NCBI GenBank assembly: GCA_903642325.1
Contig: CAHJWM010000009.1
Location: 62,001 to 126,000 of the forward strand
DNA: 64,000 nucleotides
Source: Myxococcales bacterium
Lineage (GTDB): Bacteria > Myxococcota_A > Polyangia > Polyangiales > Polyangiaceae
Reading direction: 5' to 3'
The number at the start of each line of letters is the position of its first letter. The first letter of the stretch is position 1. The notes under the pieces are model-generated. The model was not told where the DNA came from. It worked only from the letters and a program-made list of their open reading frames with translations, and ran no database searches. The translations under genes and the position numbers were made by a program. Below are positions 10,349 to 33,604 of the stretch, piece after piece.

Positions 10349-10351
10349 TCG

Positions 10352-11362: not shown

Positions 11363-11365
11363 CCG

Positions 11366-19519: not shown

Positions 19520-19570
19520 AGGGTCGGGGTGAGAGGATTTGAACCTCCAACAGCCGGCACCCAAAGCCGG
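19520..19570. repeat. Left attachment site (attL) with tRNA-Pro 3' fragment
   Basis: Identical over 51 bases to 33554-33604. Read on the minus strand, 19524-19570 is the 3' half of tRNA-Pro: anticodon loop (TTTGGGT), variable loop, T arm and acceptor 3' strand. The match stops at the 5' strand of the anticodon stem, so this is a non-functional remnant of the original gene left by integration. Confidence 0.9.
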
Positions 19571-19681
19571 GCATGACTGTCCGACAATGTCCGGGTGTGT
19601 CTCGTTATGCCGTAATTTGTCGGGGTTTTGGCGTTGATGACCTGGACGCGGCCGGACCGCGGGTGTCATAGTTTGCCGGCA

Positions 19682-21100
19682 ATGAGTACCAGCAAACAGT
19701 ACCAGCACGCACAGCCGGCTCTCGTGTTGGTCGAGCCGACCGTCCCGGGTGCAACGAGTACCAGCAGAGAAGTACCAGCACCCGCGCGCCGTCGGCGAGG
19801 ACCGAAGCATCCGGGCGTGGTGTTACTCAAACCCGACCTGAAGCGCCGCATAGGGCACCGCGCGCGCTACGTCGATCCGGACACCGGCAAGAGCACCAAA
19901 GAGACGCTGGACGCGGCGCTGCGCACCGTTGAGCTGCGCGAGGACTGGGCCGTGCGCAAGTCGAAGGGGCTCGCGACGCGCCGGCTTGAGCTTGAGCGTG
20001 GCGCGCAGCGCAAGACGGGCACCGGGCTAGGAGAGGCGATCGGCCGGTTCTACGAGGACCACCCGCACCTGCGCGCGCGCACGATCGAGGTGTACAAGGC
20101 CGCGACCGACAAGCTGGCCGCCTGGGTTTCGAAAGCGGGTGTGAAGAGTGCCGACGATCTGACCGGGCCGAAGCTCGTGGCGTTCCGGGCGAGCCTCGTA
20201 AAGGAGCCGCTGCGGGCCAGGGTGGAGGGCAAGCGCGGCGCCACCGCAGAGACCGATCGCACCCGCTCGCCGAATTCAATCAACAAGGACCTGCGATCTG
20301 CCCGGACGGTGCTCGGGTACCTTCGCTGCCTCGGCTTGCTGCCCAAACTCGGCGCCGACGAGCTCGCCGACGGGCTCAAGCGAATGGCCGTGAGCCACGA
20401 CCGGGCGCACTTCCTTCGCACACCGGAAGTGGCGGCGCTGCTCTCGGCGGCCGTTGACCATGACGCAGTGACCTTCAAGATCACCCGCAGCGAGAACGCA
20501 GCCGGGCGAAGGCACCCACGAGGCACGCCACGCTATGCCCCGATTGCGCCGTTTGTGGCCTGCGTGCTGCTCACTGGAATGCGTTTTAGCGAAGCGCTCG
20601 ATCTTGCTTGGGAGCAAATCGACTTGACCGCGCGCGACAATGACGGAGCCGTGGTTGGAGAAATTCACCTTACGAGCGCGACAAAGACGAAGCACGCCCG
20701 CACGATCGGCCTGGAAGTCTCGCCGGCACTGCTCGCGGTCTTGACGGCGCTGCACAAGGACGGTGCGACGGGCTCGGTTTGGGGGCTCACCGAAGGCGAG
20801 GCGAACGCGGCCATGCGCCGGCTGATCTCGGACCACGGCGCGCCACCGGGAGCAGGGTGGCAGGCGTTGCGTAGGACATGCGGCACGTTCTTGACCAATG
20901 CGCCGGGCATTTTTGGCGCGGCGTCGGCTTATCGTAGCGCGCGCCAGCTTGGGCATTCGGTCGAGATCGCAGAGCGCCACTACGTTGGGCTCGTTCGCGG
21001 CATCCTGCGCGATGCGCGGTCGCTTGAAGCCGCGATGCAAATCGAAGAGCAAATCGCGAAGGTAATTGCCGCGGTGGGAACCATTCAGAACGCCCGCTGA
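19682..21100 (+). CDS. int: Tyrosine recombinase (integrase)
   Basis: Phage-type integrase of 472 aa from ATG 19682; the frame opens at 19628. Residues 120-240 are the SAM-like core-binding domain. The catalytic domain shows the first Arg in LLTGMRFSEALDL, a lysine in SATKTKHARTIG, the box-II Arg in WQALRRTCGTF (the usual HxxR has Leu for His), and the His and Tyr of RQLGHSVEIAERHY. The first 40 residues are low in complexity and encoded by the arm-type GTACCAGC repeats, so translation may begin further downstream. It lies next to attL, as expected for a tRNA-targeting integrase, and should catalyse integration and excision at tRNA-Pro. Confidence 0.93.
   Translation: MSTSKQYQHAQPALVLVEPTVPGATSTSREVPAPARRRRGPKHPGVVLLKPDLKRRIGHRARYVDPDTGKSTKETLDAALRTVELREDWAVRKSKGLATRRLELERGAQRKTGTGLGEAIGRFYEDHPHLRARTIEVYKAATDKLAAWVSKAGVKSADDLTGPKLVAFRASLVKEPLRARVEGKRGATAETDRTRSPNSINKDLRSARTVLGYLRCLGLLPKLGADELADGLKRMAVSHDRAHFLRTPEVAALLSAAVDHDAVTFKITRSENAAGRRHPRGTPRYAPIAPFVACVLLTGMRFSEALDLAWEQIDLTARDNDGAVVGEIHLTSATKTKHARTIGLEVSPALLAVLTALHKDGATGSVWGLTEGEANAAMRRLISDHGAPPGAGWQALRRTCGTFLTNAPGIFGAASAYRSARQLGHSVEIAERHYVGLVRGILRDARSLEAAMQIEEQIAKVIAAVGTIQNAR
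19686..19780 (+). repeat. Four GTACCAGCA direct repeats, probable integrase arm sites
   Basis: GTACCAGCA occurs at 19686-19694, 19699-19707, 19758-19766 and 19772-19780, all in the same orientation, in two pairs spaced 13-14 bases. They begin 116 bases inside the left core repeat. The same octamer clusters at the right end (33426, 33488, 33500). In the excised circle they would flank attP on both sides, like the arm sites of lambda-type integrases. They overlap the beginning of the integrase frame. Confidence 0.65.
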
Positions 21101-21517
21101 ACGTTGATTGGCTTTTCGGCATTGGTGTTCTGGTTTTCGTTGATTGTTATCACGTCGCCCAAAGTGACTATTACCCTGTGCGCTGCCCAATTGCGTGGAC
21201 TGAAGTCGGTCTTGCGGGGACCAACCCGGCAGGCCCCCCCCACAATTCCCGAACCCGGGCAATTGCCGCTGTTTCTGAATCTGGGACCCATCAACGGGTT
21301 GCGCTCGCGAAGGTTTGCAGTCGAAAACAGGCAGGCCAGACAGACTGCATATCACACTAGTCATGTGGGCCCATTGACCGAGACGCGAACTGCCATCATT
21401 CGCACCAAAGCATTTCTAGGCCAGAAAATTAAAAGGCCTTTCGCGTCCGACAGTTAGCCCGACTGCCAACTGGCTGCGCTGGCAGTTGGCAAGGGTGGGT
21501 GCTCATCGTAACCCCCC
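21101..21517. other. Gene-poor gap between integrase and replication genes
   Basis: This 417-base gap is relatively AT-rich for the window and has no convincing gene. Near its end a 9-bp perfect dyad (21464-21472/21483-21491, around GCCAACTG/CAGTTGGC, 10-base loop) precedes the first small gene by 26 bases; it could be a terminator for the integrase, an operator or an origin-associated structure. No iterons were seen. Confidence 0.5.
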
Positions 21518-21721
21518 ATGAAGCATCTCGCGCATCTAGATACGCGCACCCTACTGGCCGTTGCCGCCGCGGCGGACGCGGATCCCCGGTCCGTACGCCG
21601 CGAGCTCGCCGCGCGCCGGGGCGAGGACCAGCACGTCCGCGGCAGGGCCGGCGAGCGGATCCGCGCTGCGCTGGCCGCTCACGAGCTCGCGGCTCAGCTG
21701 CGCACGAAGGCTGCAGGATGA
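21518..21721 (+). CDS. Small hypothetical protein, 67 aa
   Basis: A 67-aa, alanine- and arginine-rich helical protein (MKHLAHLDTRTLLAVAAAAD; then DPRSVRRELAARRG). The segment TLLAVAAAADADPRSVRRELA could be a helix-turn-helix like those of small phage regulators. Its TGA overlaps the ATG of the next gene (ATGA at 21718-21721), which supports it being translated as the first gene of the replication operon. The function is unknown. Confidence 0.55.
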   Translation: MKHLAHLDTRTLLAVAAAADADPRSVRRELAARRGEDQHVRGRAGERIRAALAAHELAAQLRTKAAG

Positions 21722-21987
21722 GCTCCCGGCCGCGCGCAGCGCCGGCAACGCTCCACCGGCTCCCCGGACCGACACCGACATGGATCGACGAGGCGCTCGC
21801 CGGTCTGCCACCGCTCCTCACCGCCGCTGAGGCGACGACCGTACTGCGGACCAGCCGCCGCAACCTGCATCGGCTCGTGATGGCTGGACGTATTCAGGCG
21901 CTGCGCGCCACCGAGTCAGGCTCGAGTCGAGTGCTAATCCCGCGCGCCGCGCTCGAGAAATATCTGCGCTCGCTGGAGGGCACGTGA
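21718..21987 (+). CDS. Excisionase-like helix-turn-helix protein
   Basis: 89 aa from ATG 21718. The segment LLTAAEATTVLRTSRRNLHR followed by LVMAGRIQALRATESGSSRVL and IPRAALEKYL is the MerR-like winged HTH of excisionases and HTH_17 proteins. It is a candidate recombination directionality factor for the integrase, or a regulator. It overlaps both neighbours by four bases (ATGA and GTGA). An upstream in-frame extension lies opposite the previous gene and is rejected. Confidence 0.75.
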   Translation: MSSRPRAAPATLHRLPGPTPTWIDEALAGLPPLLTAAEATTVLRTSRRNLHRLVMAGRIQALRATESGSSRVLIPRAALEKYLRSLEGT

Positions 21988-22241
21988 CGCACCTCGGTCA
22001 GCAGATCGCTGCGCTCCGTGACTCGCTCGGGCTGGCTCGATCGGCGCTGCACGACGCGCGTGCGCGACTCGATGCGCTGCCTCACGGCACGATCGATCGT
22101 ATCGCATGGGGTGAGCGACGGCAGGTGATCGAGGCCGTGATCGTCCGGCTCGACGGCGAGATCCGCGATCTCTGCGACGGCATCGTCGCTGACCACGACG
22201 ACGACACCGTACGCGCGTCATCGCACGGTCCGAGCGTGTGA
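21984..22241 (+). CDS. Small coiled-coil protein, 85 aa
   Basis: GTG start at 21984 overlapping the previous TGA. Residues 3-70 are almost wholly helical with heptad-like spacing (LGQQIAALRDSLGLARSALH and VIEAVIVRLDGEIRDLCDGI), followed by an acidic and flexible tail. Probably a small coiled-coil accessory protein of the element's replication module. No family is recognised. Confidence 0.6.
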   Translation: MTHLGQQIAALRDSLGLARSALHDARARLDALPHGTIDRIAWGERRQVIEAVIVRLDGEIRDLCDGIVADHDDDTVRASSHGPSV

Positions 22242-22266
22242 GCCCGATGAACGAACGGGGGCTATT

Positions 22267-23196
22267 TTGAGCACGCGTGACTGGAGTGTGCTCGGCCGCG
22301 AGGGCGACGGGCTCGATCTCTTGGAGCGTTACTACGCGCTCGGGCTGGCGATTGTGCTCTTGCACGGACTCACCGAGACGGGCGAGTGTACGTGCGGACG
22401 CGGTCTGGACTGTCAGCCGAGCCAATCCGGTAAGCATCCGCTCTGGCCGGGCTATCTCGACGGCGAGCCACGTTGGGCGGACATGCGCCGCGAACTCGTT
22501 CGCAGCCGGCGCCGAAATCTGGCGCTGCGCTTGGGTGACCAGCCGAACGGGTCGCGCCTTGTCGCGCTCGACGTCGATGGGCACGATTCGTTACTCAATC
22601 CGATCGTGGCCAGGTTCGGGGCGCTCCCCCCGACCTTGACTGAGCGCAGCGGCCGCGGCGCGCATTGGGTGTATCGGCTGCCCGCTGAATTTCGTTACCC
22701 AGTGAACAGTACGATCGCGCTCGGGGTCGAAATCAAGTCGGCACGCGGAAAATTCACGGCTCCAACGAGCTTGCATGCGGCCGGGCACCGACGCCGGTGG
22801 ACGATTGCCGTGGAGCCCGCGGAGTTGCCACGTGCGTTCGCCGAGGCGATTCAGCGGCCGCCCGATCGGCCCCCGACCGTGCTGCACAGGATCGATCTGA
22901 GCGGCTTAGAGTCGAGCGCCTACGGCCGGCGCGCGCTCGAAGACGAGTGCCGCGCGGTCTCGGAAGCACATGAAGGCGAGCGCAACGCAACGCTCAACCG
23001 GGCCGCGTTCAGCGTCTTTCAGTTGGTCGCCGGCCGAGAAATTCGCACCGCGGAAGCCGAGCGTGAGCTACTACGCGCCGCCCTTGCCACGGGTATGCGG
23101 GAGCGCGAGGCGCGCGCGACGATCGAGAGTGCACGCAGGGGCGGCACGCGGACCCCACGGACGGCGCCGCCACGCGCTCTAGTGAGGCGCGCGTGA
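22267..23196 (+). CDS. Prim-pol domain protein (bifunctional DNA primase/polymerase N-terminal type)
   Basis: 309 aa from TTG 22267 with GGGG six bases upstream. Residues 10-195 resemble the prim-pol domain of plasmid and phage replication proteins: CTCGRGLDCQPSQSGKHP, the metal-binding ALDVDGHDS, and SGRGAHWVYRLP with VEIKSARGKFTAPTS. The C-terminal third is helical and may mediate contacts with the helicase. It should make primers, or extend DNA, at the element's replication origin. The next gene starts inside its stop codon (GTGA). Confidence 0.82.
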   Translation: MSTRDWSVLGREGDGLDLLERYYALGLAIVLLHGLTETGECTCGRGLDCQPSQSGKHPLWPGYLDGEPRWADMRRELVRSRRRNLALRLGDQPNGSRLVALDVDGHDSLLNPIVARFGALPPTLTERSGRGAHWVYRLPAEFRYPVNSTIALGVEIKSARGKFTAPTSLHAAGHRRRWTIAVEPAELPRAFAEAIQRPPDRPPTVLHRIDLSGLESSAYGRRALEDECRAVSEAHEGERNATLNRAAFSVFQLVAGREIRTAEAERELLRAALATGMREREARATIESARRGGTRTPRTAPPRALVRRA

Positions 23197-23474
23197 AGGT
23201 CTACGCGAACGGGCTCGTGTCGGATCGGCGCGCTGATTTGCCGGATCCGCGCCAGGTGGTGGTTTGCCGCCGTTGGATCCGTTGGTTTGTGCGCCCGCGT
23301 AAGACCATCAACTCCAGGCGCAGCTCCTACGGCCTGAAGCACGACGCCGAGAACTGGGCGGGCATCTACGTCACGAATGGCGCGTTCATCGCGGCCGCCG
23401 TCGCGGAAGGCTACCGCTACGAGCAAATCGATCGCGGCCCGAACGCGAATTTCAACATGGGCTTTGCACGGTGA
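23193..23474 (+). CDS. Small phage-type hypothetical protein, 93 aa
   Basis: GTG start overlapping the previous stop by four bases. The block SSYGLKHDAENWAGIYVTNG followed by AFIAAAVAEGYRYE resembles a small conserved protein found in phage and genomic-island replication modules. There is no membrane segment. Its function is unknown; position between primase and helicase suggests a replication accessory role. Confidence 0.65.
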   Translation: MKVYANGLVSDRRADLPDPRQVVVCRRWIRWFVRPRKTINSRRSSYGLKHDAENWAGIYVTNGAFIAAAVAEGYRYEQIDRGPNANFNMGFAR

Positions 23475-23671
23475 CATCGATGAAAACGCCTTCACTCCGA
23501 AAGCTCCCGATCTTGCCGAAAGATGCCCCTGTGCGCTTGCGCAAAGAGATCGAGATTGGACCGGATCTCGCCAGTGTTGTCGATCAGACCATCGAGGCAC
23601 TCGGGGGCCACGCCGTCTTCCAGCGTCAGGGCGCCCTAGTCGACATCGTGCGCGATGCGGTTGATGCGTGA
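23471..23671 (+). CDS. N-terminal piece of a split primase/helicase-type ATPase
   Basis: 66 aa, GTG start overlapping the previous stop. The end, HAVFQRQGALVDIVRDA, matches the block that normally stands just before the GIxRPxGTPRIR block in phage/plasmid P-loop ATPases. Here the frame stops with TGA at 23669-23671 and the continuation DGIARPKGTPRIRLL is found in the next frame (+1) starting at 23655. So this is either an upstream fragment of a frameshifted gene, a programmed +1 frameshift (GCG TGA C), or a separately made subunit. Confidence 0.6.
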   Translation: MTSMKTPSLRKLPILPKDAPVRLRKEIEIGPDLASVVDQTIEALGGHAVFQRQGALVDIVRDAVDA

Positions 23672-25298
23672 CGGCATCGCACGGCCCAAAGGAACACCGC
23701 GGATTCGGCTACTGCCGAGCGGTCGGCTCCGCGAACTCCTGACGATTGCGGCTGACTTCAAGAAGCGGCGTCAAACGGAAGAAGGCTGGCGAACCGTTTC
23801 GGCTTCGCCGCCGGCCGACGTGGTGGCGGCAGTGGCCGCGCGCGGGCAATGGGATTGCATCCGGCCCCTCAATGGCATCGCCGAATATCCGGTGCTGCGA
23901 GCTGATGGCACTGTGCTGCAGACACCGGGTTACGACGTGCGGACGGCCCTGATCTACGAGCCCACGGTCACGGTGGTGGTTCCCGAAAATCCTACCCAGG
24001 AGGATGCTCGCGCGGCTGTTCGCGATTTGCGCGAGCTCGTGGCCGACTTCCCTTTTACGAGCTCGGTTCACAAGACGGCGTGGCTGGCCGCACTGCTTAC
24101 GCTGTTGGGCCGCCCAGCGATCGACGGCCCGACGCCGCTCACCCTGATCGACGCCAGTGAGCGCGGCACCGGCAAGACGCTGCTCGCCGACGTGATCGGT
24201 GTGATCTGTCGAGGCAAGCCGCTTCCACGGCGGACCGCACCCGAAGACCCAGCCGAGTGGAGAAAGGCCATGCTCGCCATCGCCATCGCCGCAGACCCGA
24301 TCATTTTGATCGATAACGTGACGCGCATGCTGCGCTCCGACGCTTTGGACACCGTTTTGACCGGCACCGCCTTTCGGGAGCGCGTACTGGGCCGAAACGA
24401 GGATCTGACGCTTGACGTCCGTACGCTGTTCGTCGTCACCGCGAACAACGCCATCTTGAGTGCCGATCTTATCAGGCGATCGATCCACTCACGACTGGAG
24501 TCCCGATCAGAGCACCCGGACCAACGCGGCGACTTCCAGCACCCCGACCTATTGGGCCACGCCCTCCAAAGAAGGGCGCATTACCTGGCCGCTGGGCTGA
24601 CGATCTTGCGCGCGTACGTCGTGGCGGGTAGGCCATCGGTCCAGCTGCGTCCAATGGGCAGCTACGAGGCGTGGAGCTCGGTTGTTCGTGCCTCACTGGT
24701 GTGGGCTGGCGAGCCAGACATCGCGGCAACGCAGGACGCCTTGCGGGAAAATTCGGACCCAGAGCACGAGGACCTCAGCGCGCTATTTGCCGCCTGGCAC
24801 GTGGTCTACGCGGAGCGGGCCGTGACGGCGCGTCAGGTCGCGGACGACCTCTCGGACCCTACGCTGGACCCCAGGGAGCGGACTTTGCGCGATGCAATCG
24901 GGGTGTTCTGTGATTCGGAACCGGGGCGCATGCCCTCGCTCCGCAAGCTGGGCAACAAGCTCCGAGGGGCACGCGGGCGGGCGGTAGGTGGCATCGTCTT
25001 CGAACGCGCGAGCGAGCATGGGCGCGAAGGCGTCGCTTGGCGGACCAAACGGATAGGGTGTGACTCTCGTGACTCTGGTGACTGTCATTCAAGCCTTCGC
25101 GCGCACGAGGGGGAGAGAGAGAGGACGGTAGGGAAACAGTCACAGGAGTCACCACAGTCACAGGGTGACCTTGCTGAGCGGCAGTCAGCTTTCCAATTTG
25201 GAGGTGGGGAATTGCGTGCGCCGAGCGCGGCTGCGCCCGACCCGGAACTCGATGACGTCGGAGCCGACGACGATGACGAATGGGACCGCACCCTATGA
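23655..25298 (+). CDS. Phage/plasmid replication P-loop ATPase (primase-helicase type)
   Basis: 547 aa; the ATPase part of the protein whose N-terminal block is in the preceding frame. It begins with GIARPKGTPRIRLL, then PPADVVAAVAARGQW and RADGTVLQTPGYD. The P-loop is ERGTGKTLLADVIG, the Walker B-like segment IILIDNVTR, and the sensor-like VVTANNAILSADLIRR. This set is typical of ATPases encoded beside prim-pol genes in integrative elements and phages, presumably replicative helicases. The last 90 residues are low in complexity and acidic (DDVGADDDDEWDRTL). The first ATG, at 23655, lacks a ribosome site. Confidence 0.8.
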   Translation: MRLMRDGIARPKGTPRIRLLPSGRLRELLTIAADFKKRRQTEEGWRTVSASPPADVVAAVAARGQWDCIRPLNGIAEYPVLRADGTVLQTPGYDVRTALIYEPTVTVVVPENPTQEDARAAVRDLRELVADFPFTSSVHKTAWLAALLTLLGRPAIDGPTPLTLIDASERGTGKTLLADVIGVICRGKPLPRRTAPEDPAEWRKAMLAIAIAADPIILIDNVTRMLRSDALDTVLTGTAFRERVLGRNEDLTLDVRTLFVVTANNAILSADLIRRSIHSRLESRSEHPDQRGDFQHPDLLGHALQRRAHYLAAGLTILRAYVVAGRPSVQLRPMGSYEAWSSVVRASLVWAGEPDIAATQDALRENSDPEHEDLSALFAAWHVVYAERAVTARQVADDLSDPTLDPRERTLRDAIGVFCDSEPGRMPSLRKLGNKLRGARGRAVGGIVFERASEHGREGVAWRTKRIGCDSRDSGDCHSSLRAHEGERERTVGKQSQESPQSQGDLAERQSAFQFGGGELRAPSAAAPDPELDDVGADDDDEWDRTL

Positions 25299-25419
25299 TC
25301 GACATTGCGCGAGGCGCCTCGACGTTGGCCAGATTGCCCAAGTTCAAGCCAGAAAAGAGTCCGAAATGAGACGCGGAGTCGAGCTGGTCACGTCTTCTGT
25401 CTACACCGCGTTCCGAGTG

Positions 25420-25448
25420 TTGACGGTTTTTGTCCTTCGCGCTAAGCT
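25420..25448 (+). promoter_or_regulatory. Sigma-70-type promoter for the serine recombinase
   Basis: TTGACG at 25420-25425, a 17-base spacer and TAAGCT at 25443-25448. The expected transcription start is about 25455, at the recombinase ATG (25454), which would make the mRNA leaderless. No Shine-Dalgarno sequence is seen before the ATG, which agrees. Confidence 0.5.
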
Positions 25449-25453
25449 GTTTG

Positions 25454-26200
25454 ATGGCAACACGGCGCAGAGCGAAAACTGCTCTTGGCACGCGAGCAGT
25501 GATCTACGTCCGCGTGTCCACGGCGCAGCAAGCGGCCGAGGGTCTGTCGCTAGACGCCCAACGCGAGCGCCTGGCGGCCTACTGCGCGCTCCGAGGACTG
25601 CAGGCGGTCAAAGTCATCGCCGACGAAGGGGAGAGCGCTGGCAAGCCGCTGGCGAGGCGCACGGGCGGGCGCAAGGTTCTCGAGTTGATCCGAACCAAAG
25701 CGGTCGATGCGGTCGTAGTGCTGAAACTCGATCGGGCGTTTCGCAACACGGCCGACGCATTGGCGACGGTGGAGGCCTGGGACAAGTCGGGCATTGCCCT
25801 TCATGTCGCCGAAATGGGAGGCATGTCGCTCGACACGAGCACGGCCGTCGGGAAAATGTTCCTGACCATGCTGGCCGGCTTTGGCGAATTCGAGCGCAAT
25901 CTGGCGGCCGAGCGAACCACATCGGCGCTCGCTCACAAGGCACGTTCGGGCGACTTTCGCCTAGGTGCCGATGCCCCCTTTGGCTGGCGCTACGAGGGCA
26001 ATGCGCTCGCGGAGGTTCCTACGGAGCAAGAGGTGATCGCACTGGTAAGGGCCCAGCGCGATGCCAGTGTCAGCTTCCGCAGGCTCTGTGCGGAGCTCAC
26101 GGCGCGCGGCTTCCGCAATCGCTCGGGCGGCGTGTTCGTGCCGGTACAGCTGGAACGCATGATCCGCGGTTCTGTTCGCCAGTATCACGCGGCGGGCTGA
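25454..26200 (+). CDS. Serine recombinase (resolvase/invertase family)
   Basis: 248 aa from ATG 25454. The N-terminal catalytic domain starts with AVIYVRVSTAQQAAEGLSLD, where the serine of VRVS is the nucleophile, followed by VVLKLDRAFRN and GEFERNLAAERT. A short recombinase domain follows (GADAPFGWRYE and SVSFRRLCAELTARGFRN), so this is a short resolvase-like member and not a large integrase. It has its own promoter and lies between the replication and packaging modules. It may resolve dimers, invert DNA or be a second mobility enzyme. Confidence 0.9.
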   Translation: MATRRRAKTALGTRAVIYVRVSTAQQAAEGLSLDAQRERLAAYCALRGLQAVKVIADEGESAGKPLARRTGGRKVLELIRTKAVDAVVVLKLDRAFRNTADALATVEAWDKSGIALHVAEMGGMSLDTSTAVGKMFLTMLAGFGEFERNLAAERTTSALAHKARSGDFRLGADAPFGWRYEGNALAEVPTEQEVIALVRAQRDASVSFRRLCAELTARGFRNRSGGVFVPVQLERMIRGSVRQYHAAG

Positions 26201-26249
26201 GGGCCGAGCAAGCCTCACGGGCTTTGCCGCCAGGCCGGGGAGGCGCCCG

Positions 26250-26456
26250 GTGACCGAGCCCGCGCTATACGACGAGGCTCGACGCCGGTTCCTGCGCGCC
26301 AACCCCACGGTCACCGCCGACACCTTCGATACTTGGCTAGCGCTCGCGCTGGGCTTGGGCGCCAGCATCGTTATGCAGCTCGATGGCTGCAGAGCCGAGT
26401 ACCCGCACGAGAGCGCGCCAGCGTCGAAAGTCTGCGCCGGAAAGGACCTTCCCTGA
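26250..26456 (+). CDS. Small hypothetical protein, 68 aa
   Basis: GTG start at 26250. A 68-aa helical protein with a short hydrophobic stretch (TWLALALGLGASIVMQL) that is not clearly a membrane helix. It ends directly before the next ATG (TGA then ATG with no gap), which supports it as part of the packaging operon. Not recognised. Confidence 0.5.
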   Translation: MTEPALYDEARRRFLRANPTVTADTFDTWLALALGLGASIVMQLDGCRAEYPHESAPASKVCAGKDLP

Positions 26457-27038
26457 ATGGCCCTCCGTCATGGCAAGGACGCGCTCCGCGTCGAAACGTT
26501 GCAGGCCGACGAGCAGCCCGAAGGCATACCGGCGCCAAGCGGAGGGGCCGGACTGCTTCAGGCGGAGCCTGCGCGCCGCTCGAACGGGCAGCTAGCGGAC
26601 CGCCAAGGCGCCAGCCAACTCGGGAGGCGTGGCGGCCTAGCGCGAGCCGCTAAAGCATCGCAACTCGCGGCGCTCATCGGCCTTGGGCTTCGAGGCGCTG
26701 CTCCCGAGGTGCTCGGCCCGTTCCTGGCCGACGCAAATGCGTTTGCTGCCTCTGAGGTCGAGCGTCTGGCCCGAGAGTGTGGCGGTGGGGTCTGCCCGCA
26801 AAACGCGGCGGCCCTGGTTCAGCAGGCCGCCTTGGCGATGGCAGGCAGCCGAGCAGCCTACGCGCAGGGCGACACGGCGCTTGGCGCCAAGCTCGGCGTT
26901 GAGGTTCGGCAAAACCTGCTCGGCGCTCGGGAGCTATGCGTGCGCGAAGCGCAGAGCCGTCCGCGCGCCCAGTCCTGGCCCCAGGTAGCGACGGTGCGCC
27001 ACGAAGGCGAGGACGACCCGCCAGAGGTGAAGCAATGA
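26457..27038 (+). CDS. Helical protein upstream of terminase, possible small terminase subunit
   Basis: 193 aa. The first 60 residues are polar and low in complexity; residues 65-175 are helical (AAKASQLAALIGLGLRGAAP, then FLADANAFAASEVERLARE). Its stop overlaps the ATG of the terminase ATPase gene (ATGA), the usual place of a small terminase subunit, which recognises DNA for packaging. No helix-turn-helix is evident, so the role is inferred from position only. Confidence 0.6.
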   Translation: MALRHGKDALRVETLQADEQPEGIPAPSGGAGLLQAEPARRSNGQLADRQGASQLGRRGGLARAAKASQLAALIGLGLRGAAPEVLGPFLADANAFAASEVERLARECGGGVCPQNAAALVQQAALAMAGSRAAYAQGDTALGAKLGVEVRQNLLGARELCVREAQSRPRAQSWPQVATVRHEGEDDPPEVKQ

Positions 27039-27928
27039 CCTTTCCCCCGTTCTTGGATTTCCTACGGCTGTTGGGAGTCAAGCTCACCCGGGCGCGGCGT
27101 GTGCTGTGCTCTGTCTGCTTCGGTGGTGCCCAGCCGTCGAGCTTCGAGGGTGTCGATCGAGCTGTAGCGCAACGGCTACTCGGCGACGTCGACGCGATAC
27201 CGCCCGAGCTGCTCACCGTGGTCGAGTGGGTAAAGGGGGCGCGTATCGGCGGCACGTGGCTCGCCTCGCTTCGGTTGCTGCACTTGGCGCTCACGATCGA
27301 TCTGAGCTCACTCGCGGCCGGTGAGCTGGCGTTCGTCCTACTCGTCGGCCCGGACATGCGTCTCCCGCGCCAGGGGCTTCGCTACATCGTGGGGGCCCTA
27401 AAATCGCGCCCCGAGTTCAGGGGCATGTTGCTCTCCGAATCGACAGACAGCTGCACGATCCGCCGGCCTGACGGGCGCGAGGTGACGTTCGAGATCATGC
27501 CCGCGACGAAAGGCGGCAGTGCTGTCCGCGGTCGGTCACTTGTCGGCGCGCTGTTCACGGAGGCGAGCTTCTTTCGTGACAAGGACTTTGCGATCAACGT
27601 CGACGACGTTTACCGCGGCGTGCTCCCTCGCATCCTTGCCGGCGGTCAGCTCATCCTAGAGACGACGCCATGGGCGCAGCTCGGGCTCGTGTACGAGCTC
27701 TTTGACGGCAACTGGGGCAAGCCCACGACGTGTGTCGTGGCGCACTGCCCAACCTTGCTTATGCGCAGCGACGCCCGAACCGTTTCGCTGGTCGAGCGCG
27801 AGCGCAATCGCGACCCCGAGAACGCCCGGCGCGAATTCGATGCGGAATTTTTAGCGCGCGGCGTGTCGACGTTCTTCGATCCAGTAGCAATAAACCAAGC
27901 GGTAGATTTGGAGCTTCGTGCTGGCTAA
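27035..27928 (+). CDS. Terminase large subunit, ATPase part (split)
   Basis: 297 aa from ATG 27035, overlapping the previous stop. It looks like the ATPase half of a phage terminase large subunit: VKGARIGGTWLA fits the deviant Walker A of lambda-like terminases, in which the lysine stands at the start of the motif; LLVGPDMRLPRQGLRYIVGA and PATKGGSAVRGRSLVGALF follow; the Walker B region reads FTEASFF, with Thr in place of the usual Asp. After the coupling region (LILETTPWAQ) the frame ends, and the nuclease half continues in the +1 frame starting at 27918. It would drive DNA packaging into capsids. Confidence 0.75.
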   Translation: MTFPPFLDFLRLLGVKLTRARRVLCSVCFGGAQPSSFEGVDRAVAQRLLGDVDAIPPELLTVVEWVKGARIGGTWLASLRLLHLALTIDLSSLAAGELAFVLLVGPDMRLPRQGLRYIVGALKSRPEFRGMLLSESTDSCTIRRPDGREVTFEIMPATKGGSAVRGRSLVGALFTEASFFRDKDFAINVDDVYRGVLPRILAGGQLILETTPWAQLGLVYELFDGNWGKPTTCVVAHCPTLLMRSDARTVSLVERERNRDPENARREFDAEFLARGVSTFFDPVAINQAVDLELRAG

Positions 27929-28523
27929 TCGATACATGGCGCGTGCGGCAGCTTGCGATCTCGGGCTCGTGGTCAACAGCTCCACGCTCGTTGTCGCGTG
28001 CGAGCCCGTGACCGGCTCCGGTAAGTTCGTGATCGCCGACTGGATCGAGCTTCGCCCCGCGCCCGGCGTGCCGCTTAAGCCGAGCGAGGTGGCTCGCGCG
28101 TTTGCGCTCTGCCTCCGCAAGCACGCGATCGATCTGGTCATGGCGGACGGTCACTACCTCGAAAGCCTGAAGGAAAACCTCGCGCCGTTCCGGATCGGCG
28201 TGGTTCCACTCCCGGGCGGCATCGAGGGCAAGTTCGAGCAATACAACCTAACGCGAACGACGTTCCACGAGTCACGCCTGGCGATCCCCAACGATGGGCG
28301 AATGGTCGAACAGCTCAAGGGCGTGACCAGCCGGGCGAACAGCGGTGGATCGTTTTCGATTCTGCAGCCGAAGCGCCGCGACGGTTCGCACGGCGACATC
28401 GTCAGCGCGCTGGTCGGGGCCGTCTGGGCGCTGGAATACGCGCGCACGCATCCGCGCCAAGGCCGGACGTTCGACCCCGAAGTCATCCGACTTGCTTTCG
28501 CTGGGGAGCTTCGATTTGCCTGA
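27918..28523 (+). CDS. Terminase large subunit, nuclease part (split)
   Basis: 201 aa from GTG 27918, overlapping the ATPase frame by 11 bases. It looks like the RNase H-like nuclease domain: AAACDLGLVVNSSTLVV, VMADGHYLESLKENL and the closing SHGDIVSALVGAVWALEYA hold the acidic residues expected for metal binding. Together with the preceding gene it makes a full-length large terminase. The two may be a natural pair of subunits, the product of a frameshift mutation, or joined by +1 frameshifting. Confidence 0.72.
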   Translation: MLANRYMARAAACDLGLVVNSSTLVVACEPVTGSGKFVIADWIELRPAPGVPLKPSEVARAFALCLRKHAIDLVMADGHYLESLKENLAPFRIGVVPLPGGIEGKFEQYNLTRTTFHESRLAIPNDGRMVEQLKGVTSRANSGGSFSILQPKRRDGSHGDIVSALVGAVWALEYARTHPRQGRTFDPEVIRLAFAGELRFA

Positions 28524-28557
28524 GGCCAGCAACCAACCCGAACGAGGAAAACGCATC

Positions 28558-29115
28558 ATGCCACCGATCGATCCACAGCCATCTGCACAGAGCCTCGGCG
28601 ATTTTTCCGCCAAGCCACGCTCCGCGGACCTTTCCGCGCCCGTTCCTTTTCACGACTTCGAACCAAAGCAGTTCGCGCGCAGGCAAGGCGCATTCTGGCC
28701 CGACGATTTTGTCGAGCTCCTGAACCCGACCAGCCAGGTGCTCTCGGCGATCTTGTTTTTGGGTCCGATCCCGGGCAGCCAACCCTTCAGAGGACGCCCC
28801 GAGGACGCGGACGACGACGATGGCGAGCCGAACGCGAAGCATCGCGCGGCGGCTTGGGCGCACCAATGCACACTCTTCACGCGGATCGTTTTCGCCCCCG
28901 GCGCGACGCAGTCTGTACCGCGCTCGCTCGTCTCGGCGCTCGTCACCGTCAAAGACGGCCAGGTCATCGGCGGGCACATTCCGCAACTAGTGCTCCCCGG
29001 CGATCCGCACCCGCCGACTATGCATCCTTCGCTAATCCCCGAGGGTAATGATGCGCAGCCGTTCTCGGTCCCCTCGGGCAAGCCTCGCGGCAACGCCAAA
29101 ACGGGGGCCCCATGA
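28558..29115 (+). CDS. Hypothetical protein, 185 aa
   Basis: 185 aa from ATG 28558, with a good ribosome site (GAGGAAA about 7 bases upstream). The protein is proline-rich and acidic (PEDADDDDGEPNAKHRAAAW in the middle), with a central folded-looking part (LLNPTSQVLSAILFLGPIPG) and a disordered C-terminus. There is no signal peptide. Lying directly after the terminase it could be a virion-related or packaging protein, but no family is recognised. Its stop overlaps the next ATG. Confidence 0.6.
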   Translation: MPPIDPQPSAQSLGDFSAKPRSADLSAPVPFHDFEPKQFARRQGAFWPDDFVELLNPTSQVLSAILFLGPIPGSQPFRGRPEDADDDDGEPNAKHRAAAWAHQCTLFTRIVFAPGATQSVPRSLVSALVTVKDGQVIGGHIPQLVLPGDPHPPTMHPSLIPEGNDAQPFSVPSGKPRGNAKTGAP

Positions 29116-29945
29116 ACGACCTGCAAGCCATCGAGCGTGTGCAGCCCGACTTGCAGACCGCGCAGCAACTGCTGTCATCGGCCAGCGTCGAGCGCGGGAA
29201 AGCGGATCTCGCGATCGAAACGGCAAAAGCTGAACACGCGCGAGCGCGGCAAGCTTACCTCGTCGACCCTACCCCCGAGGGTGCCAGGGTTGTAAAGCGC
29301 GCGAAAGAAGCCATTGAAGACGCCGAACTACTCGCCGAGGCGATGGCTCTGCGGTTCGAGTCTGCCGACCAGGCGCAACGCGAGGCCGAGCGTGTCGCGG
29401 CAGCGCGCGACCTTGATCGCGTCGCTGCTGACCGTGATCAGGTCCGAGTTCAGCTTGACGATGAATTTCACACGCTGCGAAACGTGCACGCGCAGGCCGC
29501 GCAAACGATCGCGACGATCGAATCACTGATCTCGCAGGACGCGGTGCTTTGCGCCCGCGCAAACACGGCGGCACGAACTGCGGGCGTTTCTGGCCAAGCA
29601 AAACCGATCGATCCGGACCTCGTGCGGGTCGCTTTCACAGTCCTCATCAGCGGCGGTCGACCGCGGCGAAAGAGCGAACTCGGCGAGGCATCGTCTCGCG
29701 TCTTGAACGCGCTGCTTGCGGAATTAAACAACGAGAAATTGAGCCTGTCCGATCGCGCCACGATCGTGCGCTTGGCCGGGAGCGAGCTCGCACGCGCGAC
29801 ATCGGCGGAGGTCGGCGACTGGTTTGTACCGCAGTACGCGCCCCCGCATTTTCTCGCAACCTCAGCGGCCGCGAGTCGGTATCGCGCAGCGCAAGCGCTC
29901 TTAGTAGCACTCATGGTTCAAGCTCAAAACGGAGAAACCCAATGA
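29112..29945 (+). CDS. Coiled-coil protein, 277 aa
   Basis: 277 aa, beginning in an ATGA overlap. Residues 10-160 are a long, nearly continuous helical region of alternating Ala, Glu, Arg and Leu (for example AKAEHARARQAYL and AEAMALRFESADQAQREAER), a probable coiled coil; residues 170-277 form a more globular helical domain. Such proteins act as scaffolds, tails or structural factors in phages, but none can be claimed here. The next gene again overlaps by ATGA. Confidence 0.6.
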   Translation: MNDLQAIERVQPDLQTAQQLLSSASVERGKADLAIETAKAEHARARQAYLVDPTPEGARVVKRAKEAIEDAELLAEAMALRFESADQAQREAERVAAARDLDRVAADRDQVRVQLDDEFHTLRNVHAQAAQTIATIESLISQDAVLCARANTAARTAGVSGQAKPIDPDLVRVAFTVLISGGRPRRKSELGEASSRVLNALLAELNNEKLSLSDRATIVRLAGSELARATSAEVGDWFVPQYAPPHFLATSAAASRYRAAQALLVALMVQAQNGETQ

Positions 29946-30391
29946 TTAGACAGTACCCAAACGGCGGCCCTAGTTTTCTTGTGCCTTTGGTTGGCCCCAA
30001 GGCCGCACAGAGCGCCGCAATTCGCAAGGGCCTGAACGGAGCAACGCCCGAACCGGCGGCGACCGAGCCCGCCGAAGCGCCCGCACCCTCGCCGTCGGAC
30101 GACTTCGAGGCCGTACTCACCGAACTGCGAACGACGCTTGGGTCAGACTTTGATCGCGTGCTCCCGCAGGGTGAGATTTCAGCGCTTCGAGGTAATCCAG
30201 CAGGGTTATCCGCGTTCGTCCGAAACCTCCGAACGTCCCGAGCGTTGGCCAAGCGCGACCAAGCGCGCGCCGATGTTTTGGCCGCCAAGGCAGCCATCGA
30301 GAACGATGAGAAGGAACAATCGCGGCTCGCTGGTTTGGGGCGCAAAGTCGGCGAGGCCGAGCACGCTGCGCGACAAAAAGACTTCGAGTGA
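29942..30391 (+). CDS. Hypothetical protein, 149 aa
   Basis: 149 aa from ATG 29942 in an ATGA overlap. The N-terminus (MIRQYPNGGPSFLVPLVGPK) is followed by an Ala/Pro/Glu-rich linker and a helical C-terminal half (FVRNLRTSRALAKRDQARAD) with coiled-coil character. It is the last gene of the long rightward operon; hairpins follow. Not recognised. Confidence 0.55.
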   Translation: MIRQYPNGGPSFLVPLVGPKAAQSAAIRKGLNGATPEPAATEPAEAPAPSPSDDFEAVLTELRTTLGSDFDRVLPQGEISALRGNPAGLSAFVRNLRTSRALAKRDQARADVLAAKAAIENDEKEQSRLAGLGRKVGEAEHAARQKDFE

Positions 30392-30438
30392 GCCGGTGTC
30401 TAACCTGTCGGCTCGGGCCGCAAAATGCGGCGGCCCCG

Positions 30439-30579
30439 CCCTCTGCGTTTGGTGGTTCGGGGCGCAGAGGGTTGATCCGCGGCGCACCTTTCGATTTTTC
30501 AGAGGCGGGGTGGGTGACCCGCTCGGTCCCATCGTCGCGGGGCCGCGAGGGTCCGCCGTCCTCTTCCGGCGGGCCCTCG
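30439..30579. terminator. Two strong hairpins between convergent units
   Basis: Two dyads lie between the rightward operon (ending 30391) and the leftward XRE gene (ending 30635): 30439-30447/30463-30471 (9 bp, 15-base loop) and 30546-30558/30567-30579 (13 bp with one T-G wobble, 8-base loop). Neither has a run of T, so they may be Rho-assisted or bidirectional terminators, or RNA-processing sites. Confidence 0.5.
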
Positions 30580-30634
30580 TCGATGGCGCTAAGAACACGC
30601 CACGACAAACGCGATTCATCCGAGTGCTGGTGAC

Positions 30635-30904
30635 CTATCGATTCTTGGGAGGTCGACCACGCCGGACCTTCGTTTGCGGCCCCGGGGCTATGAAGAGCTC
30701 GATCACCGGTACCCGTAGCGCGTTCGCAAGTTTGACAAGCGTAGTGAGCGTCAGGTTCGTACCTAGTTCAACCCGACTTAGATATTGCACAGAGACTTCG
30801 AGCCTTTCGGCGAGTTGCTCCTGGCTGAGCGATGCCAATCGCCGAAGCTCAGCAACGCGCCGCCCGACATTCAGGATAGTCTTGTCGGGGTTTTCGCGCG
30901 CCAC
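30635..30904 (-). CDS. XRE-family HTH regulator
   Basis: 89-aa Cro/C1-type regulator. The helix-turn-helix is SLSQEQLAERLEVSVQYLSR followed by VELGTNLTLTTLVKLANAL, and the C-terminus is basic (KVRRGRPPKNR). It is divergent from the lipoprotein gene at 31017 and is the only clear leftward gene of the element, a good candidate for the element's repressor or immunity regulator. Its own promoter should lie at about 30905-30960, where a short AT-rich stretch is present. Confidence 0.88.
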   Translation of the reverse strand: MARENPDKTILNVGRRVAELRRLASLSQEQLAERLEVSVQYLSRVELGTNLTLTTLVKLANALRVPVIELFIAPGPQTKVRRGRPPKNR

Positions 30905-31016
30905 CCACTGACGCTGTTCGTTGCGCTGTCACCATAAAAACAACTTATAGGTTGAAATTCACGGCTGACTTCGCTAGTTGGGGCTCCGCGTCTGGGACCT
31001 GATGGGAGACCTCTCG

Positions 31017-31727
31017 ATGCTGCGCCATAGCCCAATCCGGCAATTCGCGGTGGTATGCGCCCCGCTTCTGTGGCTCGTTGCGGCATGCGCCGAGGCTCAC
31101 CCGGCCGAATTTCCAAGCCGCGCCGAGCAGCATGAGGCTTCGATGAAGGCGCTTCTCGCTCAAAACGAGGCAAAACAAGCCGAGGCTGACAAGGTGGCCG
31201 CCGCTCGCGTTAATGCGGATCTAGCCCTAGCAATTGACCAGGCAGCTATGAAGGCTGTCACGGACAGACTTGCAACATGCACCCCGATGCTTCGGTCGTT
31301 CCAGGCAAAGGAGGCTGAGTGGGAGCAACGGGCAGAGCGTGTGCGCCAACGCGACGCCGATAGGTCATGGGCGCGCGCCAATTGCCGGTGGGACAACGCG
31401 CCGCGGACACGGCTCGAAGTAGAGTCACATCGCGAAAACGGTGCGACGGTCTACGAAGTAAACAAGCGATACTCAGGCGTGGCTCGCTCCGTCGCGAAGT
31501 GCCCTCTTGGGACATCCGCGGACAGAATGCGGGCGGCCGATGACGTCGCCAATAGCCTCGTGAGTGACGGTCGCATCGCGCGTGACGGCCCTGGCGACAG
31601 GCCGCTGGCCTTCGGGAAGTTCAAGGAAGAGCTTGAGTGGTGTCGAGCACATCAACCGCAAGCTGAGAAGCAGTCGACCGCAGCCCCAGATACGCGGGCC
31701 CCCTCCGAGCCCGAGGTGGATTTCTAA
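31017..31727 (+). CDS. Putative lipoprotein with coiled coil, 236 aa
   Basis: ATG 31017 has a GGGAG ribosome site. The N-terminus MLRHSPIRQFAVVCAPLLWL ends in VAACAE, a lipobox, so the protein is probably a lipoprotein. Residues 30-130 are helical (MKALLAQNEAKQAEADKVAA), then a domain with four cysteines (for example LATCTPML, RANCRWDN, VAKCPLG, EWCRAHQ) and a disordered tail. It could be a surface or periplasmic cargo protein of the element. No family is recognised. An in-frame ATG at 31002 is an alternative start. Confidence 0.65.
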   Translation: MLRHSPIRQFAVVCAPLLWLVAACAEAHPAEFPSRAEQHEASMKALLAQNEAKQAEADKVAAARVNADLALAIDQAAMKAVTDRLATCTPMLRSFQAKEAEWEQRAERVRQRDADRSWARANCRWDNAPRTRLEVESHRENGATVYEVNKRYSGVARSVAKCPLGTSADRMRAADDVANSLVSDGRIARDGPGDRPLAFGKFKEELEWCRAHQPQAEKQSTAAPDTRAPSEPEVDF

Positions 31728-31750
31728 CAACGTTTCGGAGGAGGGCGCTA

Positions 31751-31885
31751 ATGCGTAATCGGCGCGCCATGCTGGCATCGCTGCGCGGTGAAATCCGCCG
31801 CCGTGTTGGGTACACGGTTGGCGTGCGCTACACGGCCGACGAGACGACCCATGGCCTCGTCGTCGACAGGCCTTGGGCACGATAG
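31751..31885 (+). CDS. Small basic protein, 44 aa
   Basis: A short frame with an excellent ribosome site: GGAGGAGG at 31737-31744, six bases before the ATG. It encodes a 44-aa basic protein starting MRNRRAMLASLRGEIRRRVG, then YTVGVRYTADETTHGLVV, ending PWAR. The second half alternates like a beta-hairpin. It follows the lipoprotein gene by 23 bases and is probably cotranscribed. Unknown function; its small size and basicity would suit a nucleic-acid or partner-protein binder. Confidence 0.55.
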   Translation: MRNRRAMLASLRGEIRRRVGYTVGVRYTADETTHGLVVDRPWAR

Positions 31886-32151
31886 GCGGCTGAACACGAT
31901 TTGTAGGCCCGTAGGGAGTGAGCCACCTCACATGACCGTAACGGAAGTGAGGTCGCGGACAGCTCCTGGTTTGCGGCGTCAGCGCCGCCGGCGCGACTGG
32001 TTCGTTGCGCGATTTAAAAAAAATACCTAGTAAAAACAAGCTGTTGACCGTTTGCGCGGAAGTCTTAACGGTTCGCCGGATAGGGACGCGCTTGCATTCA
32101 GCGAATTCGTGCTAAGCTCAGGTTAGGGACTGTAAACGTAGATAGGTTACA

Positions 32152-32976
32152 ATGACAAATCCAGCTGCAGAGGAATCAAGTAACAGCGAGGCTAATTCCA
32201 ACAAAGTCGAAGCGAATGGTGGAACGAAGGCGCGCAGCGAAACGGCGTACCCCTTCTTTGGTCTCACCCATGGGATTGCAACGGTCGAGGCTGTGCGACG
32301 CGCGGGCGGGAAGGAAGCTTCGAATGCCGACGTGATGCGCGAGTTGGGAATTGCATCTTCGACCAATCGTGCTTGGGCGTACGGCATCCCCGCTGCGATT
32401 CAATTCAACCTCATCGAGCGGATTGGTCGCGGCGACGAGGGTCGCATCAAGATCACGGACTTGGGCATGCGCGTTGTGTTTCCGGGTGATCCAGACGAAG
32501 CGCGCGCCGCGAAGATCGAGGCCTTTAAGAAGCCTGAGCTGTACCAGCGGCTGCTCGAAAAGTTCGGTGGCAGCATGCCCCCGTCCAAGGACGGTCTGAA
32601 AAACATCCTCTATCGGGACTTCAAGATCGTCGAGTCGATGGCTCCGAACGCAGCGGAGGCATTCCTGGATTCACTGAAGATCGCCGATCTGATTGAGCCG
32701 AGTGGGCTCATCTGCCGCGCGGACGGCGCGCCGAGGCCCGAGGAGAAGCCCGTACTCCCGCCGGTCGAGCGCTCCTCGAAACACAATGGATCCGATTCGA
32801 GTACGCAGACCATTACGGTCCCCGCGGACTTCATCGTCTACAAGTGTAAAATCGGAAAAGGGCGGGTGATTGAAATCCCGTTGCCTCCCCAATTTTCGAA
32901 AGCCGAGGTGGGTCGTCTGTACGCGTTCCTGCAAACGCAGGTCGATGATGACGACACCGAACCCCAAAACGACTAA
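32152..32976 (+). CDS. DUF5343-like protein, 274 aa
   Basis: 274 aa. After a polar N-terminus (about 30 residues), residues 33-185 carry YPFFGLTHGIATVEAVRR, a predicted winged-helix part (NADVMRELGIASSTNRAWAY followed by LIERIGRGDEGRIKITDLG), and PSKDGLKNILYRDFKIVE, which resemble DUF5343-type proteins. A linker follows, then a beta-rich C-terminus (VPADFIVYKCKIGKGRVIEI). A regulator or defence-related cargo protein is possible. A hairpin terminator follows the stop directly. The gene lies at the right end of the element, the usual place for cargo genes. Confidence 0.65.
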   Translation: MTNPAAEESSNSEANSNKVEANGGTKARSETAYPFFGLTHGIATVEAVRRAGGKEASNADVMRELGIASSTNRAWAYGIPAAIQFNLIERIGRGDEGRIKITDLGMRVVFPGDPDEARAAKIEAFKKPELYQRLLEKFGGSMPPSKDGLKNILYRDFKIVESMAPNAAEAFLDSLKIADLIEPSGLICRADGAPRPEEKPVLPPVERSSKHNGSDSSTQTITVPADFIVYKCKIGKGRVIEIPLPPQFSKAEVGRLYAFLQTQVDDDDTEPQND

Positions 32977-33003
32977 ACCCCGCCAATTCTGACGGGGTCT
33001 TTG
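32977..33003 (+). terminator. Rho-independent-like terminator
   Basis: ACCCCG (32977-32982) pairs with CGGGGT (32993-32998) around a 10-base loop, followed by CTTTG. The stem is only 6 bp and the T run is short, but it stands directly after the stop of the DUF5343-like gene. Confidence 0.5.
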
Positions 33004-33553
33004 CCGAGTTCAGGCCACTAGAAGAGACTTGAACCTTTTGTCCAACTTCGCAGGCGGGACTGAGGGATCGTAGCCACTTCTGGAGGTCTGGGCAAGGCGT
33101 GAAGGCGGATAGCCGCAAGAAGCGCAAAACCCATGCATATTGTCCCCAAAAGGCTCTGTAAAGAGCCTCCTCCCCCCAAAAAAAGAGCTCAGCAACCCAA
33201 GCCGATCTGGCGACCGCCGCCAGTTCGCCGCCAGCGCGAGTGACGTGAGACAGCCCTAGCTGCGGCCGGATCGCCTCGCGCGATCCGGCTTCGCCCGCCA
33301 GACGATGTTCGCCTATCGGAGCATTGCACCGAGCAGTCGCGCTCGCCGCCGCTGGGACCGCGTGTCGTTGACCAATCCCGACGCCTAAGCAGCAAGCGCA
33401 ACCTACAGCGCGCAGATGAGTGGCGGTACCAGCGGGAATGTAGCACCGACATTGGTAAGGCTCGCCCGACGAGCGCCCGGGCAATCAGTACCAGCATCCG
33501 TACCAGCGGGCTTTTTTCGTCGTGTCCCGCGATCACGAATCCAGCATGATTTA
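33004..33553. other. Non-coding right end of the element
   Basis: 550 bases without a convincing gene. It holds a hairpin AGGCTC/GAGCCT (33151-33156/33163-33168), which on the minus strand is followed by TTTT and may be a weak terminator, and the GTACCAGC repeats near the attachment site. The rest shows nothing I can support. Confidence 0.5.
33426..33508 (+). repeat. Three GTACCAGC repeats, probable right-arm integrase sites
   Basis: GTACCAGCG at 33426-33434, GTACCAGCA at 33488-33496 and GTACCAGCG at 33500-33508, in the same orientation as the four copies at the left end. They end 45 bases before the right core repeat. After excision this group would lie upstream of the attP core and the left group downstream of it. 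Confidence 0.6.
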
Positions 33554-33604
33554 AGGGTCGGGGTGAGAGGATTTGAACCTCCAACAGCCGGCACCCAAAG
33601 CCGG
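33554..33604. repeat. Right attachment site (attR)
   Basis: 51 bases identical to 19520-19570. It covers the 3' half of tRNA-Pro from the anticodon stem to just past the discriminator base. The intact tRNA at this end means the incoming element restored the gene's 3' part. Confidence 0.9.

Follow-up and report, generated by a model that had tools for sequence, protein, structure and literature searches.

A putative phage satellite with its own terminase in a tRNA-Pro gene of a Polyangiaceae bacterium

What kind of mobile element carries terminase and replication genes without virion or conjugation genes? This question is raised by a 14-kb element in a stretch of 64,000 nucleotides (the window) from a Myxococcales bacterium (GenBank assembly GCA_903642325.1, contig CAHJWM010000009.1, positions 62,001 to 126,000; family Polyangiaceae in GTDB). 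A preliminary description of the window, made from the sequence alone, took the element for a phage satellite and named a reduced prophage as the main alternative. After searches of family libraries, related genomes and viral contigs, we put at about 0.58 the probability that the element is an integrated phage satellite which brings its own complete DNA-packaging motor. Such an element would probably travel in particles built by another virus.

Boundaries and gene content of the element

The element is a real integrated unit, because it lies between two copies of an exact 51-bp direct repeat (attachment sites attL and attR, 100% identical) that occurs only at these two ends in the whole host assembly (5.83 Mb, 99% complete), and because the right copy sits inside an intact tRNA-Pro(TGG) gene adjoining guaA, located with ARAGORN. 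This copy makes up the 3' part of the tRNA gene, which is the usual target of tyrosine integrases. From attL to attR the element spans 14,034 bp. Its genes are mainly rightward, and many of their start and stop codons overlap. The flanking repeats in tRNA-Pro and the compact, mostly rightward layout had been noticed in the preliminary description and were found again here. The composition of the element is not foreign (G+C 0.640 versus 0.632 for the remaining window).

Our family and profile searches agreed with the earlier claim of terminase and replication genes without virion or conjugation genes. Pfam, PHROGs, NCBIfam and dedicated portal and capsid profiles found no portal, capsid, tail or lysis gene in the element. 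The genes at 28.5-30.4 kb, which had been marked beforehand as the place where virion genes might lie, gave no portal, capsid or tail match, and the gaps of the element held no remnants of phage structural genes. No relaxase or conjugation family appeared in the general family-library scans (Pfam and NCBIfam included), nor any P4-like psu/sid/alpha-type family in the Pfam, PHROGs and NCBIfam scans. The element thus has neither the head, tail and lysis modules of a Caudoviricetes prophage nor the relaxase or conjugation genes of an integrative and conjugative or mobilizable element. It does have the general traits of a satellite, namely its own integrase at a specific site, the lack of genes for a full virion and a packaging gene, the latter by homology to the large terminase subunit (TerL).

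The candidate small terminase subunit (TerS), the ATPase and nuclease halves of TerL and the following genes o11, o12 and o13 form a tightly overlapping operon. We consider it extremely unlikely that the element is an autonomous phage of very small size, with capsid and tail proteins that have diverged beyond recognition. Several genes of the element are indeed without family match. However, the operon offers only ~1.8 kb of confident unassigned coding sequence after TerL, whereas a portal alone takes ~1.5-2 kb in related phages; in addition, o12 is coiled-coil-like and a lysis gene is missing.

The terminase and its relatives

The split terminase of the preliminary description was confirmed. 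The ATPase half matched phrog_2 and is 46-51% identical to TerL of Rctr16k (see below), phages and other elements, while the nuclease half, in another frame, aligns with relatives. Together both halves align along the full length of single-ORF (open reading frame) TerLs of 476-622 aa, and the profile of the family matched solved TerL nuclease structures (e.g. 5m1f, 7e-10). The Walker A motif is deviant and has lost its lysine. A dead ATPase was considered on this ground and rejected, because the form KGAR[IV]GG is common to the intact single-ORF TerLs of loci L040, L043, L045 and L060. The lambda terminase also has a deviant Walker A motif.

The gene in front of TerL is called a candidate TerS by its position. 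It shares just an N-terminal stretch with the PHROG-recognised TerS of locus L132. Its AlphaFold model was helical and of moderate quality, and a fold search with this model gave no match.

TerL may be divided functionally, by a recent lesion or through an assembly error, and it may be defective in this copy. In one alternative, the element used to work as a satellite until, not long ago, a small frame change inactivated its TerL (or an assembly error gives this appearance). It would still excise and replicate, and would either not package itself or use a helper TerL with its own TerS, as do the Staphylococcus aureus pathogenicity islands (SaPIs). TerL is one ORF in all relatives but one. The coding bias shifts abruptly to the other frame near 27,900 and is preserved before and after the junction, as it should be if the event was recent. 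On the other hand, the exception is a phage contig of the same family, L083, and the nuclease ORF has start codons of its own at or just after the stop of the ATPase ORF, which fits coupled translation. We regard inactivation as unlikely, if plausible. In L083 (IMGVR_UViG_3300021408_000140, 40.9 kb) the two TerL ORFs encode 339 and 221 aa and lie ~450 bp apart (9914-12045).

Genomes of the order contained this TerL family in 14 of 145 cases. The GTDB set contributed nine loci, of which eight carry the label Polyangiaceae, Myxococcales or deltaproteobacteria, and IMG/VR contributed 18 contigs. The viral contigs yielded these hits to a 7-row TerL alignment and nothing to a single TerL sequence. 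The only relative in the phage database was Rctr16k (KX853514, 46% identity). A phylum-wide count of 10/379 is not a prevalence figure, few candidates per genome having been scored. In the larger contigs, the genes after TerL usually have the sizes of a portal (~600 aa), a scaffold (~330 aa) and a capsid (~420 aa), which is the canonical siphovirus order.

A second set of loci lacks genes of these sizes after TerL and is bounded by exact att repeats. It includes elements of 13.1 kb at tRNA-Glu (L049), 15.1 kb at tRNA-SeC (L050), 15.0 kb at a tmRNA in Polyangiaceae (L060) and 10.2 kb at tRNA-Leu (L064), in none of which a portal or major capsid protein (MCP) was recognised. Portal and MCP profiles run against all six frames picked out the phage controls L042, L046, L078 and L083 and matched no reduced element; these profiles missed the portals of L047, L068 and L072, and the test is thus specific to one phage type. 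In L060 and L064, the genes scanned with PHROG gave no head, tail or lysis family; all their matches fell into integrase, replication, peptidase, regulator and unknown families. In L050, one gene resembles a head protease, and there is a weak match to a tape-measure protein. The closest module is that of L060, where TerS, TerL and the counterparts of o11 and o12 follow in the same order. The preliminary description had asked whether related elements carry full virion modules; L060 and several other att-bounded relatives are without portal and capsid genes. Because of these att-bounded relatives without a recognised portal or MCP and the order shared with L060, the window element probably belongs to a recurrent class that brings the whole motor and borrows the shell, rather than being one deleted prophage.

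The relatives also bear on the reduced prophage, according to which the element would descend from a complete siphovirus lysogen like L047, would have lost the head, tail and lysis genes to deletion and would now be dying. L047 shows the same order of prim-pol/ATPase, serine recombinase, TerS and TerL, followed by portal, protease, capsid and tail genes, and the frameshifted TerL and the gene-poor stretch after o13 in the window element would suit such decay. We nevertheless think this origin quite improbable, since the gaps hold no structural-gene remnant, the att repeats are still identical and the integrase is intact. Moreover, o11 and o12 recur after TerL in L060, itself att-bounded and virion-free, and TerL and the ATPase are closer to those of other elements than to those of L047.

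In a maximum-likelihood tree of TerL (32 rows), the reduced elements are scattered among phages, and well-supported branches force at least three changes between the two. Terminases have thus passed between phages and reduced elements on more than one occasion. L040, L045 and L060 form one supported group, and the TerL of the window has no supported placement. The tree shows that the reduced elements arose, or took phage terminases, several times and are not one satellite family.

The preliminary description had also proposed a search for the same gene order at tRNA-Pro in other Myxococcota. A congener carries, at the tRNA-Pro beside guaA, a 15.5-kb element (L132) with a TerS of phrog_57, a TerL and a coiled-coil-like gene, in which no portal or MCP was recognised. 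Its TerL belongs to another branch; the order TerS-TerL-o11-o12 was found at the tmRNA (L060). In another congener the same tRNA-Pro holds a 17-kb element (L133; G170:C56, 852-17986) with an S49-type head protease, a coiled-coil-like gene and a tail-fibre-like gene, in which no TerL or other terminase gene was recognised; it looks like another satellite-like design. This tRNA-Pro holds different satellite-like elements with different integrases.

Other genes of the element and of related loci

The features of the element are listed in Table 1. The integrase, excisionase-like gene, prim-pol, ATPase and second recombinase of the earlier gene list were all recovered by family matches, as was the repressor-like XRE gene.

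Table 1. Features of the element, in window coordinates
Feature	Position	Strand	Evidence or remark
attL, distal copy of 51-bp repeat	19520..19570	.	exact repeat, two genome copies
Tyrosine integrase (Int)	19628..21100	+	PHROG_1 3.7e-21; start uncertain, 19628-19817
67-aa ORF overlapping excisionase start	21518..21721	+	coding bias; no Pfam match
Excisionase-like helix-turn-helix (HTH) protein (Xis)	21718..21987	+	PF12728 (HTH_17) 5e-8; TIGR01764 3e-7
85-aa ORF of unknown function	21984..22241	+	gene call
Primase-polymerase (prim-pol), Prim-Pol N-terminal type	22267..23196	+	PF09250 9e-17
Two small ORFs between prim-pol and ATPase	23193..23671	+	family and homology searches
ATPase, putative replicative helicase of prim-pol elements	23655..25298	+	phrog_29234 1e-66
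Small serine recombinase	25430..26200	+	PF00239 5e-34
Candidate TerS, 193 aa	26457..27038	+	homologues directly upstream of TerL in several loci
TerL ATPase half	27035..27928	+	phrog_2 1.9e-16; deviant Walker A KGARIGGT; catalytic E in TEASFF
TerL nuclease half, another frame	27918..28523	+	aligns with relatives; RNase H-like acidic residues kept
o11	28558..29115	+	same place as first gene after TerL in L060 and L043
o12, coiled-coil-like	29112..29945	+	homologue in same place in L060
o13, 149 aa, end of TerS-TerL operon	29942..30391	+	overlapping start/stop
Cro/C1-type repressor (XRE)	30638..30904	-	PF01381 3.4e-15
Possible lipoprotein-like ORF	30978..31727	+	weak coding evidence; not called by codon bias; no family match
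Cargo gene, 274 aa	32152..32976	+	lowest-GC part of element
attR, repeat copy within intact tRNA-Pro	33554..33604	.	exact repeat and ARAGORN tRNA
tRNA-Pro(TGG), integration target beside guaA	33555..33632	-	ARAGORN

The integrase had no match within the phage collection searched. It is 52% identical to that of L052, an 11.8-kb tRNA-Val element in a congener, and its catalytic residues R303, K337, R399, H427 and Y436 are conserved in this comparison. L052 is satellite-like and has the same kind of integrase, excisionase and ATPase without a terminase. This would be compatible with a genomic island whose movement depends on general transduction or on its integrase alone, and in which the terminase genes are retained for another purpose, e.g. 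as a decoy against phage packaging in a defence island. We judge such an island very unlikely, since PADLOC defence matches in the element were at chance level, and since TerS, TerL and the downstream genes keep their overlapping operon and recur in unrelated elements.

Between prim-pol and the ATPase, the ORF at 23193-23474 matched phrog_9576 and that at 23471-23671 resembles the N-terminus of related ATPases. Relatives of the ATPase are present in 29 of 145 genomes of the order, and a PDB search found none. The serine recombinase is perhaps a multimer resolvase. It was also considered as the mark of a second, nested element; this idea was dropped because prophage L047 likewise has a serine recombinase between ATPase and TerS.

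After TerL, o11 is co-located with a counterpart in L060 at weak homology (E 0.02), and its AlphaFold model was too poor to use (pLDDT, predicted local distance difference test, 41). The homologue of o12 in L060 is 31% identical over 127 aa (E 0.001), and L064 gave a weak match to the N-terminus. A single-sequence search with o12 found no relative in 184 genomes of the order, nor in viral contigs. We regard o12 as a candidate scaffold or capsid-handling protein. o13 had no meaningful family match. The cargo gene had no match in Pfam, PHROGs, NCBIfam, PADLOC or plasmids, and stands for the cargo genes announced earlier.

Several observations were made in the related loci. L049 (G132:C28) has three tRNA-Glu att copies, at 758, 3554 and 16656, which suggests tandem integration, and its genes include one for a trypsin-like protease and one that is PIN-like. 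Stand-alone proteins of 119-129 aa in L040 (9450-9809) and L064 (4883-5272) show similarity to the Mu-I-like head protease of Rctr16k in its C-terminal part; these scaffold-like proteins suggest that some members do influence the assembly of heads. In L039/L061 (JACPFM010000073, 5.8-17 kb), the genes after TerS and TerL, which are of the window family, look like tail genes (tape-measure-like, spike-like), and neither portal nor capsid lies between. This arrangement would be opposite to that of a capsid-forming satellite, or the locus is a partial prophage. L048 (G123:C267, 16,835 bp) encodes ParA, primase, DnaB, a tyrosine recombinase, TerS and TerL, with no recognised capsid. It has an exact 55-bp repeat inside TerL, with copies 15,439 bp apart, that ends at the contig end, which suggests a circular or tandem 15.4-kb element, a plasmid-like satellite. 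A very small candidate element at tRNA-Lys (L054; G035:C86, ~5.9-10.3 kb) has prim-pol, ATPase and integrase only. L052 (11433-12488) and L132 (9036-10082) encode mutually related repetitive proteins of ~350 aa (E 9e-9), possible receptor-binding or fibre proteins.

Proposed life cycle and comparison with known systems

The satellite reading proposes the following cycle. Infection by a helper would relieve repression, Int and Xis would excise the element, and prim-pol and the ATPase would replicate it. TerS would then select the packaging start site of the element itself, and the TerL of the element would bind to the portal of a procapsid made by a helper siphovirus and fill this procapsid, while o12 and o13 may act on head assembly. 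The tails and lysis of the helper would release the element. The helper would thus need to supply a procapsid with portal, tails and lysis. The portals of related phages turned up in 10 of the 179 genomes searched from the order, and therefore candidate helpers circulate in the group. Full siphoviruses, which encode portal, scaffold and MCP, use a TerL of this same family, so that suitable helper portals exist.

Several points weigh against this reading. The candidate TerS was recognised by no family library. In the Walker B motif TEAS replaces DEAA, with T in place of the aspartate, and a frame change interrupts TerL near 27,906-27,925. The plus strand is gene-poor at 30.4-32.1 kb, and this 1.7-kb stretch after o13 could be decay. 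Searches of the host assembly found neither a PF04860 portal nor a PF05065 capsid, nor any portal of related phages, and thus gave no sign of a resident helper. Helper use and packaging are read from gene content. The satellite reading of the preliminary description nevertheless remains the best supported, as virion genes are absent here and portal and capsid genes are absent from L060 and several other att-bounded relatives. Its support is partial, since TerL lies in two frames in this copy and the tree does not give one satellite family.

A wider proposal, to which we give somewhat less than even odds, is that Myxococcota host recurrent, polyphyletic satellites with TerS and TerL and without portal or shell. 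Their TerLs would have been taken repeatedly from phages, each motor would have to dock on a portal from another element, and in the window element ATPase and nuclease would be two proteins of the motor. In the satellites known so far, packaging is captured through small adaptors (TerS, cos sites, Rpp, Sid), or else the satellite makes a whole head. If a motor-swapping class without portal is real, docking between motor and portal across elements would be an exploitable step, and satellite biology would extend to Myxococcota. The finding also gives a search rule, namely att-bounded islands of 10-16 kb with TerL and no portal. Since one tRNA-Pro beside guaA is reused by different elements in one genus, exclusion and helper specificity become testable.

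Among the accessible descriptions, with an earlier one possible, both terminase subunits without portal or capsid fit none of the definitions of phage-inducible chromosomal islands (PICIs), capsid-forming PICIs (cfPICIs) and Mulch/Flayer satellites. The window element resembles PICIs such as SaPIs in its size, end integrase with specific att, excisionase, primase-type replication, repressor, packaging gene and lack of a virion module. Compared at the domain level with the PICI gene order (PMC6092414), int, xis, prim-pol and ATPase are all present, with the repressor at the other end. However, the packaging functions of PICIs go no further than TerS, a cos/pac site or a TerS adaptor, and the TerL used is that of the helper (PMC6092414, PMC10690885), and the whole TerL sets the window element apart from these descriptions.

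The cfPICIs share with it both terminase subunits and helper dependence, the latter inferred here. They encode in addition portal, protease, major capsid and connectors (PMC10690885), which were not found in the window element. Rctr16k (16.7 kb, from a denitrifying anaerobic methane oxidation enrichment) is likewise small, with an integrase and the related TerL, but its record is partial and contains a Mu-I-like protease and a tape-measure-like gene. Tycheposons, cargo-carrying elements of 4-200 kb (PMC10872708) that are among the proposed satellites in a review of families (PMC11389934), also combine a tRNA target with a tyrosine recombinase. The Streptomyces phage satellites MulchRoom and MiniFlayer encode TerS, TerL, portal, capsid and scaffold without a primase (PMC10690885). 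They have both terminase subunits in common with the window element, and for the other genes the situation is reversed, with portal, capsid and scaffold on their side and the primase on that of the window element.

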